NCBI GenBank assembly: GCA_019695335.1
Contig: JAIBAF010000026.1
Location: forward strand, 1-45,954
DNA from: a bacterium
GTDB lineage: Bacteria > CLD3 > SB21
Reading direction: 5' to 3'
Length of the DNA stretch: 45,954 nt
Shown here in pieces: positions 41,192-45,155 of the stretch. The translations under genes and the position numbers were made by a program. The first letter of the stretch is position 1. Each line of letters opens with the position of its first letter. The notes below the pieces were generated by a model. It did not search any database, was not told the origin of the DNA, and worked only from the letters and a program-made list of their open reading frames with translations.

Positions 41192-42658
41192 TCACCCTTG
41201 CGCCAATTTCTCGAGCATTTTCAACGTTGCTTCGTAAAACGGTTTAACGGACGGAATGAACAAGCTTTCGTCAGGCGAATGCGCACCTTGAATTGTCGGA
41301 CCGAATGAAATCATTTCCATACCTGAAAATTTTTCGCCGATGATTCCACATTCCAGACCTGCATGAATGGCCGTGACATGCGGTTCTTTGCCGTACATTG
41401 CCTGAAATGTCGTTTTAGCGATGCCGAGCACTTTCGATTTCATGTCCGGTTTCCATCCAGGATATCCTTCCGATTGTGTCATCTCGGCGCCCGCGAGTTC
41501 AGCAGTCGCGCGCACCCGATCGACCAGCGCGTCTTTTTCCGTTTCGATGAAACTGCGTTGATTGCTCCCGATCAATATTGATGTATGCGTCATTTCGATC
41601 GTCGCCAGGTTCACCGACGTCTCCACAAGTCCGGATAATTCTTTGCTCATCGCCATCACACCGTGCGGCAACGCATGTAATAAATTAATCAAAACGGCCG
41701 TTTGTGATTTCTTCATGACATGTGGTTTTTCCGTGGACGTTTCGGTCAGTGTCATTTTTAAATGCGGATCGGTCGAATGATAGACCGGTTTGATAGCTTT
41801 CTGCAATCGCTGAAAATCCTTTTTGAACGACGCAACATCTTCGTTTGAAATGGCCAGGACGGCCTCTGCTTCGCGCGGAATCGCATTGCGTTTACTGCCG
41901 CCGTGAAGATGCGACAGACGAAAACTGTACGAACGGTGCAAGCTCCAGAGAATTCGCGCAAGGATCTTGATCGCGTTTGCGCGGCCGAGATGAATATCGA
42001 GACCGGAATGGCCGCCGACTGCGCCTTCGACTTTGATTTGCAATGCCGTCATGCCGTCGTGCACGTCCTTCCATTTGACTGGAAACGTAATCGTCGCATC
42101 TTTGGCGCCGGCGCATCCGACAAAAAGAACGCCTTCTTCTTCGGAATCCAGGTTGATCAAGCGACGTCCTTTGAGCATTTTCGGGTCCAGATGCGTCGCG
42201 CCGGTCAGGCCGGTTTCCTCATCGATGGTAAAAAGCATTTCCAGCGGTCCGTGCACGAGCGAGTCGTCGCTTAAAATCGCCAGCATCGTCGCCACTGCAA
42301 TACCGTTGTCCGCGCCGAGCGTCGTACCCGTCGCTTTGATCCATTCGCCGTCAACGCGCGGACGGATCGGATCTTTGTCGAAATCCATCGTCACGTCTTT
42401 GTTTTTTTCGCACACCATATCGAGATGGCCTTGCAAAACGACCGCCGGCGCATTTTCCAAACCGGCCGACGCCGCTTTCCTGACGACGATATTGCCCGTG
42501 GTGTCTTCCTGAATTTCACGGTTCAGTTTCTTAGCCGTTTCAATAATATATGTGCGGATTTTTTCTTCTTTTTTGGAAGGCCGGGGAACCTGCGTGATCT
42601 GGTAAAAATAATCGAAGACCTGACGCGGTTCCAGTCCGGATAAACTATGTTCAGCCAT
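41192..42658 (-). CDS. pepD: Aminoacyl-histidine dipeptidase (M20)
   Basis: Zinc-dependent dipeptidase (PepD/carnosinase-type) that splits Xaa-His and other dipeptides in the cytoplasm. I use ATG 42658 (MAEHSLSGLEPRQV; SD AGGGAG 7 nt upstream), giving 488 aa, a standard length; the frame opens nine codons earlier. Metal and catalytic residues lie in LQGHLDMVCEKN, TTLGADNGIAVATML, FTIDEETGLTGA (catalytic Glu-Glu) and the late HAGLECGIIGEKF. The lid domain lies between residues about 200 and 400. A strong promoter sits 28-56 bases upstream, so this is probably a single-gene unit. Confidence 0.94.
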   Translation of the reverse strand: MAEHSLSGLEPRQVFDYFYQITQVPRPSKKEEKIRTYIIETAKKLNREIQEDTTGNIVVRKAASAGLENAPAVVLQGHLDMVCEKNKDVTMDFDKDPIRPRVDGEWIKATGTTLGADNGIAVATMLAILSDDSLVHGPLEMLFTIDEETGLTGATHLDPKMLKGRRLINLDSEEEGVLFVGCAGAKDATITFPVKWKDVHDGMTALQIKVEGAVGGHSGLDIHLGRANAIKILARILWSLHRSYSFRLSHLHGGSKRNAIPREAEAVLAISNEDVASFKKDFQRLQKAIKPVYHSTDPHLKMTLTETSTEKPHVMKKSQTAVLINLLHALPHGVMAMSKELSGLVETSVNLATIEMTHTSILIGSNQRSFIETEKDALVDRVRATAELAGAEMTQSEGYPGWKPDMKSKVLGIAKTTFQAMYGKEPHVTAIHAGLECGIIGEKFSGMEMISFGPTIQGAHSPDESLFIPSVKPFYEATLKMLEKLAQG

Positions 42659-42685
42659 GATTGTCTCCCTGAATAAGTGGGACAT

Positions 42686-42714
42686 AAAATAACCTTTCCC
42701 TTCGCGATTATCAA
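42686..42714 (-). promoter_or_regulatory. Sigma70-type promoter for pepD
   Basis: On the minus strand: TTGATA (42714-42709), 17-nt spacer, TATTTT (42691-42686). Four of six -35 and four of six -10 positions match. The implied leader is only about 20 nt. Confidence 0.66.
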
Positions 42715-42730: not shown

Positions 42731-42757
42731 GTCATTCCCGCGCAAGCGGGAATCCAA
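42731..42757 (+). repeat. REP-like palindromic element, copy 1
   Basis: GTCATTCCCGCGCAAGCGGG followed by AATCCAA. The core CCCGC-GCAA-GCGGG pairs with itself and continues outward (ATTCCCGC with GCGGGAAT). Other copies in this region: 42844-42866, 43141-43168 and, inverted, 43195-43222. Confidence 0.82.
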
Positions 42758-42800: not shown

Positions 42801-42848
42801 CGGTTTTATCAAGGCCGGAAAATACGCGTTGAATGAAATTGCCATTCC
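42801..42848 (+). repeat. 48-bp direct repeat, copy 1
   Basis: Begins CGGTTTTATCAAGGCC and continues through AATACG and GAATG to CATTCCC. The second copy is at 43100-43148 with a few substitutions and one base of length difference. In both copies the repeat runs directly into a REP-like element. Confidence 0.75.
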
Positions 42849-42917: not shown

Positions 42918-42945
42918 ACTTTCTTTGTCTTGATACAAAGAAAGT
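42918..42945 (+). repeat. CTTGAT-loop hairpin, copy 1
   Basis: Perfect 11-bp stem ACTTTCTTTGT (42918-42928) with ACAAAGAAAGT (42935-42945) and loop CTTGAT. It is followed by AGCCAAAGAAAAATCAAGGC (42946-42965), a tail shared with the copies at 43455-43488 (inverted) and 43570-43603. Confidence 0.85.
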
Positions 42946-42968
42946 AGCCAAAGAAAAATCAAGGCTGT

Positions 42969-43109
42969 GATAAAACTGCCGGAATCCGAGTTCGCTTACT
43001 TAGTGGCGGAAAATAGTTCCAAATTCTATCGCATTCATAAACGTGATCAATCATTTCACATTTTCCGCTGAACCTTTCGCGAACTCGTATTCTCTTCGGC
43101 GGTTTTATC
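42969..43109. repeat. Composite palindrome, copy 1 (~140 bp)
   Basis: Three nested pairs. GATAAAACTGCCG (42969-42981) pairs with CGGCGGTTTTATC (43097-43109; one G-T wobble). GAGTTCGC (42988-42995) pairs with GCGAACTC (43079-43086). GCGGAAAAT (43006-43014) pairs with ATTTTCCGC (43060-43068). The loop is 45 nt. The same layout recurs at 43291-43435. It could fold as a long RNA hairpin or a DNA cruciform; it has no coding potential. Confidence 0.82.
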
Positions 43110-43148
43110 AAGGCCAAGGAAATACGTGTCGAATGGGATTGTCATTCC
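43100..43148 (+). repeat. 48-bp direct repeat, copy 2
   Basis: Begins CGGTTTTATCAAGGCC like the copy at 42801-42848 and continues through AATACG and GAATG into the REP-like element at 43141. Its 5' end is also the right arm of composite palindrome copy 1. Confidence 0.75.
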
Positions 43149-43222
43149 CGCGTACGCAGGAATCCAGAACGAAATTCCAAATTAGTGTGTGAAATCTGGA
43201 TACCCGCGTTCGCGGGTATGAC
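43141..43222. repeat. Inverted pair of REP-like elements (BIME-like)
   Basis: GTCATTCCCGCGTACGCAGG plus AATCCAGA (43141-43168) faces an inverted copy, TCTGGATACCCGCGTTCGCG plus GGTATGAC (43195-43222). 24 of 28 positions are complementary, with 26 bases between. Head-to-head REP pairs of this kind form stable hairpins in transcripts. Confidence 0.82.
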
Positions 43223-43290
43223 ATAAGAGTTGGAAAAGTTCCCATTCCTTTCAAAGAGATTTGGTGTTAGTTGGGCATTTCTGACCGGCC

Positions 43291-43435
43291 TTGCAAAAAA
43301 CGCCGGACTAAGAACCGGCGTTCGCATATCATCATGCGGAAAACGTGAAACACATTCAATCTTTGAGCAAAACTAATAGCATGTAACTGTTTTCCGCACC
43401 CAAAAAGCGAACGGCGGTTCAGGCGTTTTTTGCAA
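43291..43435. repeat. Composite palindrome, copy 2 (~145 bp)
   Basis: Three nested pairs. TTGCAAAAAACGCC (43291-43304) pairs with GGCGTTTTTTGCAA (43422-43435), perfectly. AACCGGCGTTCGC (43313-43325) pairs with GCGAACGGCGGTT (43407-43419; one mismatch). TGCGGAAAAC (43335-43344) pairs with GTTTTCCGCA (43389-43398). The loop is 44 nt. The inner arms (GTTCGC, then GCGGAAAA) repeat those of copy 1 at matching spacing, while the outer arm and loop differ. Confidence 0.84.
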
Positions 43436-43454
43436 AGCCTTGATTTTTCTTTTG

Positions 43455-43488
43455 GTTCTTTTCTTTGTATCAAGACAAAGAAAAGAAC
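43455..43488 (-). repeat. CTTGAT-loop hairpin, copy 2 (inverted)
   Basis: Perfect 14-bp stem GTTCTTTTCTTTGT (43455-43468) with ACAAAGAAAAGAAC (43475-43488) and loop ATCAAG. This is the reverse orientation of copies 1 and 3. The shared tail, read on the minus strand, is at 43454-43436. Confidence 0.85.
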
Positions 43489-43569: not shown

Positions 43570-43603
43570 GTTCTTTCTTTTGGCTTGACCCAAAAGAAAG
43601 AAC
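43570..43603 (+). repeat. CTTGAT-loop hairpin, copy 3
   Basis: Perfect 14-bp stem GTTCTTTCTTTTGG (43570-43583) with CCAAAAGAAAGAAC (43590-43603) and loop CTTGAC. It is followed by the tail CAAGAAAAGGTCAAGGCTGTG, as after copy 1. Confidence 0.85.
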
Positions 43604-43627
43604 CAAGAAAAGGTCAAGGCTGTGTCC

Positions 43628-43858: not shown

Positions 43859-44140
43859 ATGAACTATACTGATAGTGCAAATAAAATCATTCAAAAAGTG
43901 GACATCAACCTATATTCGCATATTGATAATTTGGTTGAGCAATATAAAGCATATAGTCATTTAAAAATTAGTTTTATGCCAGGAGATTCATCTACCTTGC
44001 ATGCTGGATTATACGACAATAATGATAAGATAATAACAGCTGCAACATTCAATAGAAGAGGTATTTTGGTATATAATTCTATAAGAACTATTATATTTTC
44101 TTATTCGAATGGAACAGTTGATTTAATTAAGGCCGACTAA
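43859..44140 (+). CDS. Hypothetical 93-aa protein in AT-rich island
   Basis: Not recognised. 93 aa: an N-terminal helix (SANKIIQKVDINLYSHIDNLVEQYKAYSH) followed by a beta-rich part with a regular strand pattern (LKISFMPGD, LHAGLYDNNDKIITAATFNRRGILVYNS, IRTIIFSYSNGTVDLIKAD). It has no signal peptide or membrane helix. The DNA is much more AT-rich than neighbouring genes, and no good Shine-Dalgarno precedes the ATG, so it may be recently acquired or may be a remnant. It is followed 97 nt later by the hydrolase gene, and the two lie between copies of the 65-bp direct repeat. Confidence 0.6.
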   Translation: MNYTDSANKIIQKVDINLYSHIDNLVEQYKAYSHLKISFMPGDSSTLHAGLYDNNDKIITAATFNRRGILVYNSIRTIIFSYSNGTVDLIKAD

Positions 44141-44237
44141 TTCGATAGACATTTCCATTTAATTTTATGTATTGATTTTCATTCCATCACTGTTCTCACA
44201 ATAGCTCCAAAATAAACCTTCATCGAAATATTCTAAA

Positions 44238-45155
44238 ATGATCAAATGGATCCTTCGTCTTCTCGCTATCGGTGTTATTATCGCTTCACTTTTATATGTA
44301 GCCGCTTGTCACATCGCCCCGTATTCTATTATCAAACCGCACCGGCTGTCCCGTTCTGAGATCGAACAAATGTTTTCTCAGCGTTATCCGGATCAATTCG
44401 GATTGACCTTTGATACACTTTCAATTCCGGTAAACGATACGATCACGCTTAAAGGCTGGTTTTTGCATTCGATAACCGATAGCAATAAAGGTACTGTTTT
44501 CGTTTTACACGGAATCGCAAGTTGTAAAGAAGCGATGCTGCCGCTCGCAAGTAAATTTTGCCGGAACAATTACAATGTTGTATTGTTTGATTTGCGGACG
44601 CACGGCGAAAGCGGCGGCGAATATTGTACGTATGGATATTGGGAAAAACGCGACGTGGTTATTGTTATCGATTCTATTCAATCCAAATATCCGCAAGCCG
44701 CTCCATTCGCCATGTTTGGCAATTCGCTCGGCGCAGCCATTACTATTCAAACGCTGGCTATAGAGCCTCGCTTGACTTGTGCTGTTGTGGAAAGTCCTTT
44801 CGCAACATTACGGGAAGTTACGTCGGATTACTTGACGCGAATCATCAAAATACGTTGGCGCTCTTTTTCAAATGCGGCTTTGAATGAAGCAGGTTCCATT
44901 GCTAAGTTTCCCGTTGACGAAGTTCAACCCGAAATCGCAGCGTTTTCCATTCGCCAACCGGTTTTGGTGGTTCACGGTACAAAAGACAAACATATCTCGA
45001 TCGAATACGGAAAAAGAGTTTATCATAATCTTCAATCTCCTTATAAAGAATTCTATGAAATATCCGAAGGTGACCATTATAATTTAATGACTGCAGGAGG
45101 AATTGAATATGAAAATAAAATCATGTCTTTCTTCGATCACTATTGTAAACCGTAA
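44238..45155 (+). CDS. Alpha/beta hydrolase with N-terminal membrane anchor
   Basis: 305 aa. An N-terminal helix (WILRLLAIGVIIASLLYVAAC) anchors it to the membrane or is a signal sequence; the cysteine (AAC) could mark a lipobox-like site. The alpha/beta hydrolase core has the oxyanion strand VFVLHGIASCK, the nucleophile elbow GNSLGA (Ser), acid Asp in VHGTKDKHIS and His in EGDHYNLM. It belongs to the serine aminopeptidase/BAAT-like 'DUF1100' type group, and its substrate is unknown. It is preceded by the 93-aa gene. No clear SD is seen before ATG 44238. Confidence 0.88.
   Translation: MIKWILRLLAIGVIIASLLYVAACHIAPYSIIKPHRLSRSEIEQMFSQRYPDQFGLTFDTLSIPVNDTITLKGWFLHSITDSNKGTVFVLHGIASCKEAMLPLASKFCRNNYNVVLFDLRTHGESGGEYCTYGYWEKRDVVIVIDSIQSKYPQAAPFAMFGNSLGAAITIQTLAIEPRLTCAVVESPFATLREVTSDYLTRIIKIRWRSFSNAALNEAGSIAKFPVDEVQPEIAAFSIRQPVLVVHGTKDKHISIEYGKRVYHNLQSPYKEFYEISEGDHYNLMTAGGIEYENKIMSFFDHYCKP

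Follow-up and report, generated by a model that had tools for sequence, protein, structure and literature searches.

Several classes of bacterial repeat resemble, each in part, the structured units considered here. In the portion of the account consulted (PMC4666352), the PIT elements, BoxC and TM_ECO have strands in the order pyrimidine-loop-purine-loop-purine, with stems of about 9 nt and short loops, and occur in many copies per genome with a patchy distribution between close relatives; the PIT/ITxF motif comprises three consecutive triad-compatible stems of 6-15 nt with loops of 1-6 nt. The module described below is similar in all of these respects, but it is A/T-rich where theirs are G/C-rich, its hairpin loop pairs with a segment beyond the third strand, and it is tied to a composite hairpin, whereas that portion of the account describes neither a pseudoknot nor a linked palindrome. 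The ERIC/IRU, RPE, YPAL, RUP and NEMIS repeats (PMC2229807) share with our units a length of 100-200 bp, a non-coding and intergenic character, a long imperfect hairpin, multiple copies and an unknown or trans-acting mobiliser. Repeats of the ERIC/RUP type carry a TA dinucleotide at their termini (PMC2229807), whereas the present units begin at a CTTTC hairpin and end in AAGGCC, have no known consensus in common with those repeats, add a triplex/pseudoknot module, which itself occurs in several phyla. REPINs (PMC3116915) likewise consist of two inverted units able to fold together, with compensatory changes between arms, but they are built from short REPs where our units measure about 200 bp, and we found no association with RAYT/Y1 genes.

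The combination of triplex module, pseudoknot and fixed composite hairpin is absent from the descriptions in PMC4666352, PMC2229807 and PMC3116915, so far as the portions consulted extend, and within that compass appears new among bacterial structured MITE-like repeats. Rfam returned no match at the gathering score, the matches far below threshold being mostly to miRNA hairpin models, and literature searches with sequence strings returned nothing. The R and L core boxes of integron attC sites (GTTRRRY and RYYYAAC) were not recognised by eye, a comparison that concerns shape only. If our reading is right, it links orphan intrastrand-triplex motifs with MITE-like palindromes, since the triplex motif can then belong to a more extensive conserved unit.

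The window, meaning the whole stretch of 45,954 nucleotides analysed, carries these units between positions 42700 and 43850, a region flanked by a peptidase M20 gene (41192-42685, minus strand) and a 93-aa open reading frame beginning at 43859 (plus strand), so that the neighbouring genes are divergent. The following features were located:

42801-42835, plus strand: further truncated unit, consisting of a right end and tail (CGGTTTTATCAAGGCCGG...).
42919-42944, plus strand: module hairpin of unit w1, CTTTCTTTGT-CTTGAT-ACAAAGAAAG, with loop CTTGAT at 42929-42934; located exactly, the same hairpin adjoining almost every full copy in the family.
42948-42964, plus strand: third (mirror) strand of w1, CCAAAGAAAA, with loop partner ATCAAG (42958-42963); based on permutation tests of the pseudoknot and of mirror symmetry.
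42965-43115, plus strand: composite palindrome of w1, the first copy of the preliminary description; covariance model R1, 145.9 bits.
43116-43140, plus strand: 3' tail of w1, with abundant ATACGTGT.. and, after it, a GTCATTCCC repeat; from flank comparison, the tail being common to several copies in the genus.
43287-43437, minus strand: composite palindrome of unit w2, the second copy of the preliminary description; covariance model R1, 148.8 bits.
43438-43455, minus strand: third (mirror) strand of w2, AAAAGAAAA, with loop partner ATCAAG.
43455-43488, minus strand: module hairpin of w2, GTTCTTTTCTTTGT-CTTGAT-ACAAAGAAAAGAAC.
43570-43624, plus strand: third unit, module alone, its loop CTTGACC pairing with GGTCAAG; the palindrome is absent after GGCTGTG.

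Both palindromes have the architecture first reported for them, an outer arm, a gap, an arm with ..GTTCGC, about 10 nt, a GCGGAAAA arm and a loop of 44-45 nt followed by the mirror arms. The best limits are those listed above, in place of 42969-43109 and 43291-43435 in the preliminary description. R1 places w1 on the plus and w2 on the minus strand, which makes the two palindromes inverted to each other, a point that the preliminary description missed. It also took as whole what proves to be part of each unit, the adjoining module (42919-42964, plus; 43438-43488, minus) having been overlooked. The loops, which it described as differing in sequence, are not free to vary: copies of the genus retain AGTTCC or AGTTAC 3' of the left inner arm, and TTYCAC ahead of the right one. 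Folded as single strands, the w1 palindrome reaches -34.8 kcal/mol (z -6.1) and that of w2 -44.2 kcal/mol (z -8.0), and for neither was any of 200 dinucleotide shuffles equally stable. The pair is flanked by the truncated right end on one side and the module-only third unit on the other. Palindromes of the type GTCATTCCCGCG..CGCGGGAATCCAG lie at 42731-42756, 43141-43166 and about 43197-43223, and flank many units of the genus on both sides; we take them to resemble the Neisseria dRS3 repeat. Between 43625 and 43720 further short palindromes (TCCCTGAGCGGAGTCGAAGGGA type) break the third unit directly after its module.

The module has a constant order. A pyrimidine/purine hairpin (CTTTCTTTG-loop-CAAAGAAAG) is followed, after 3-6 nt, by a purine strand in mirror relation to the stem and then by a segment whose sequence complements the loop of the hairpin. 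Loop and partner change together, as CTTGAT/ATCAAG, CTTGACC/GGTCAAG (the third unit in the window), GCAGCGC/GCGCTGC, TGGCTC/GAGCCA, TCGTGC/GCACGA, GGCAC/GTGCC and CCGTC/GACGG. Across 26 distinct loops the summed complementarity was 119 against 78.8+-4.7 when permuted, with none of 20,000 permutations as high, and across 16 distinct partners 73 against 45.3+-3.7; modules with very short loops, which are frequent in the sister genus g4, showed no pairing of loop and partner. To compare the third strand with the stem, we use the notation A(a)GA(b) for the purine strand of the stem and A(c)GA(d) for the third strand. Among 15 asymmetric lineage types c equals b in 13 and c equals a in one, where permutation gave a mean of 5.4 and none of 20,000 trials reached 13. 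The third strand therefore repeats the stem in mirror order, as an intrastrand triplex requires, and not in direct order. With a stem of 8-10 nt, a 6-nt loop, a spacer of 3-5 nt and its mirror third strand, w1 has the dimensions of such a motif; the module is predicted, from sequence, to form one. An origin of the third strand by slippage, which yields direct repeats, is ruled out by the single direct type against 13 mirror types. Covariation of mirror symmetry is a rare sign, legible in sequence alone, of selection acting on a three-stranded structure. The bottom strand has a pyrimidine third strand, of a kind that could form in RNA or DNA, and the top strand a purine one; according to the portion of PMC4666352 consulted, a purine third strand does not form in RNA.

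The palindrome arms also covary. In an alignment of 42 copies, which was fitted to the model and is so biased towards it, paired cells make up 94.7% of the stems and double changes occur in 17 of the 35 stem pairs. Compensatory double-change cells number 155, where shuffled alignments gave 46+-8 and sliding the partners by 1-3 columns gave 7-16. The sub-families GATAAAAC/GTTTTATC and GCAAAAAAC/GTTTTTTGC are also visible in a free MAFFT alignment. The arm covariation asked for in the preliminary description stands above both controls. On the strand as written, G-U cells are rarer than A-C mismatches (10 against 32), so the top strand has no RNA signature, while the bottom strand may bear at most a weak one. 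This bears on a reading in which the bottom strand would give rise to a structured RNA, as an RNA gene or a stability element, with a long hairpin followed by a 3' pseudoknot that has a U-rich strand. Telomerase and ENE-type RNA triplexes offer the analogy, having a U-rich strand with U.A-U and C+.G-C triples; if the bottom strand were RNA, a U-rich third strand would similarly be predicted along a U-A stem within a pseudoknot. The mirror symmetry would fit the geometry of a parallel pyrimidine third strand on the bottom strand, where the mismatches become 32 G-U against 10 A-C, the cap AACTC..TCARACA reads on inspection as tandem G.A pairs, and the RNA fold has a z of -6.3. However, G-U pairs are few overall, no Rfam family matches, gene context and orientation are not conserved, and the many near-identical dispersed copies together with an empty site indicate mobile DNA. 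A bottom-strand RNA seems unlikely to us.

DNA searches with w1 and w2 found seven full or nearly full copies in the genome of origin and three truncated ones; as the latter lie at or near contig ends, copy number is probably undercounted. A covariance model built from seven copies (R1) matched copies in this genome and in five relatives of the home family, namely the congener G001 (MAG_43, JABWBZ), G002 and the members of genus g4 (G004-G006), and found none in G003, G007, G008 or G009. Being palindromic, the element scores on both strands at many loci, and R1 counts take the better-scoring strand only. A wider genome search, proposed at the outset, has thus turned up further copies both at home and in relatives. 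At the G001 ortholog of the window locus (L045) the w1 module is kept and its palindrome deleted, while w2 and the open reading frames at 43859-45155 are absent within a larger difference. The window locus has therefore changed since the species split, and w1 predates that split. At L111, L084, L089 and L045 an additional short GC-rich hairpin, such as ATCCCGCC..GGCGGGACAGG, replaces the loop-side stem of some module hairpins, and to judge from the sequences this looks like nested repeats inserting at the tips of hairpins.

In proposing how the units came to be dispersed, we lean, with slightly more confidence than doubt, towards reading w1 and w2 as a convergent pair from a non-autonomous, MITE-like family of interspersed repeats that spreads when a folded strand is inserted by a putative trans-acting recombinase. 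Each unit would be a predicted pseudoknotted intrastrand-triplex module joined to a composite hairpin of about 150 bp. One strand would fold, most probably when replication or transfer leaves the DNA single-stranded; the recombinase, acting in trans, would recognise folded or repeated ends and insert copies, often into the centre of other hairpins; and selection on the fold, with correction between palindrome arms during replication, might keep the structure while its sequence drifts. This reading draws on multi-copy dispersal, arm covariation, the pseudoknot and mirror third strand, the empty site and recurring ends described next, the want of a fixed gene orientation, and the convergent module pairs of Caballeronia.

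G004 contains a 562-bp composite of two units with the modules inside, bounded by GAGGCTGTTGCA as 12-bp terminal inverted repeats, and the orthologous site in G006 lacks it, the flanks being 91-94% identical. This is one empty site at one locus, and it concerns a related composite in the sister genus, so that the search for empty sites suggested by the preliminary description succeeded there and not for the window copies, which are without the GAGGCTGTTGCA end sequence. The same GAGGCTGTTGCA stands at both ends of composites of about 480-610 bp at several g4 loci. These composites occupy the centre of CCCCTT..AAGGGG hairpins (L150, 5279-5840; L155, L231, L234, L236, L237), which suggests a preference for hairpin centres as targets, and the empty G006 site holds such a hairpin with other content; YPAL too targets sites of dyad symmetry (PMC2229807). 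The g4 composites thus show the terminal inverted repeats and filled/empty polymorphism of a MITE, while a parental transposase with the same ends is missing: no longer, autonomous element or transposase with matching ends was found in six genomes searched. No target-site duplication was evident at the g4 composite ends inspected, where the insertion sites are hairpins that obscure duplications. Of these two absences the first counts against mobility and the second may do so. Also against it are the lack of a Y1 association and the circumstance that the sole empty site, its hairpin holding other content, comes from metagenome-assembled genomes, in which single junctions carry some risk, with none found for the window copies.

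A more specific proposal would liken the element to a REPIN, its folded single strands being the substrate of a Y1 (RAYT/IS200-like) transposase, as the paired inverted units, their intergenic position and their capacity to fold as single-stranded DNA would allow. Y1 genes are indeed present in 10 of the 13 other carriers tested, but there is none in the genome of origin, G002, G030 or G260, and copies are not systematically beside them: just 3 of about 35 loci in relatives have a Y1 gene and a copy no more than a few kb apart, and the single copies so placed in G065, G005 and G274 may be there by chance. Mobilisation by Y1/RAYT was therefore not supported, and we think it highly improbable. 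Long stable hairpins between genes might act in cis on the mRNA of neighbouring genes, for instance in termination, attenuation or the stabilisation of 3' ends. Copies have, however, no fixed orientation to their neighbours, and every arrangement occurs, including the divergent genes at the window locus; for want of an orientation bias we reject an mRNA 3' element and find any such cis role scarcely credible.

The alternatives first offered, a folded RNA or cruciform or a non-autonomous mobile family, both gain from the further copies, the covariation and the empty site, but the top strand lacks the signature of RNA and the triplex/pseudoknot module had not been seen. The repeats might instead be by-products of DNA metabolism, their arms made complementary, and kept so without function, by template-switch correction of quasi-palindromes and the nesting of hairpins, with copies spread by homologous exchange between flanking repeats. 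The arms are often perfect, the flanks contain other palindromic repeats and tandem units, the arms in Caballeronia look shuffled between copies, and one palindrome was lost by deletion in G001. Yet template switching yields inverted repeats and slippage direct ones, neither giving a conserved mirror relation, and the module is kept across phyla; we allow this origin a slim chance.

A search with the module pattern matched 11 of 386 sampled genomes, and the reversed control none. Outside the home family it found 27 modules in G059, 18 in G062, two in G147 and one each in G030 and G088, several of which are followed by a different long palindrome. L019 (Ruminiclostridium) was set aside as a chance match of the search pattern, with no model match there. 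Short-loop copies of the home family bear a cap, AACTCG-hairpin-CTCARACA, and a search for it gave 34 matches in G274 (control 0), six in G245, five each in G030 and G260 and three in G050; module and cap stand together in the same order in G274, G050, G065 and G030, while 19 chance cap matches taken as controls had no module and no unusual fold. R1 did not detect the distant copies. A second model, R2, was built from the home family only and its automatic structure caught the outer stems alone; it matched copies in G030, G079 and G260 weakly (E 1e-4 to 0.02) and missed those in G274, G050 and G065. With model matches weak or missing, deep homology rests on the shared module, the cap motif and the string TTCTTAACGGC, and is not proven.

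Among plasmid records, pILYOP01 of Ilyobacter polytropus has 7 modules and pNK81 of Caballeronia sp. NK8 has 19, with partial module matches in Paraburkholderia and Pseudoalteromonas; the window unit itself had no match in the plasmids, nor had a pattern searched for in viral contigs. An Ilyobacter copy and the g4 copy L107 have GATTTCTTAACGGCATTTTTT in common. The Caballeronia modules mostly form plus/minus pairs separated by about 497 bp and lie where long near-palindromes end, and w1 and w2 (42919-43488) have the same convergent layout. Repeats of like build in unrelated phyla are probably mobile DNA. That module and capped palindrome form one ancient mobile structured superfamily, with members in Fusobacteriota, Pseudomonadota and several uncultured lineages, we put forward only tentatively, as possible but doubtful; an undescribed mobilising enzyme would recognise its folded ends, or its RNA would contain a telomerase-like U.A-U triplex. 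If our reading of the units is right, Ilyobacter and Caballeronia are defined, named, multi-copy cases in which to seek a mobiliser or a transcript.

Two further observations concern the palindromes of these distant carriers. Loci L254-L282 (Caballeronia sp. NK8 pNK81 and sp. M1242) are near-perfect palindromes of about 500-600 bp with a triplex module towards both ends, in which arms of different types look swapped between copies. In G245, loci L207, L208, L215 and L216 belong to a separate multi-copy palindrome of GTTCGCTC/AACTCG blocks, which has the same cap motif without the triplex module.
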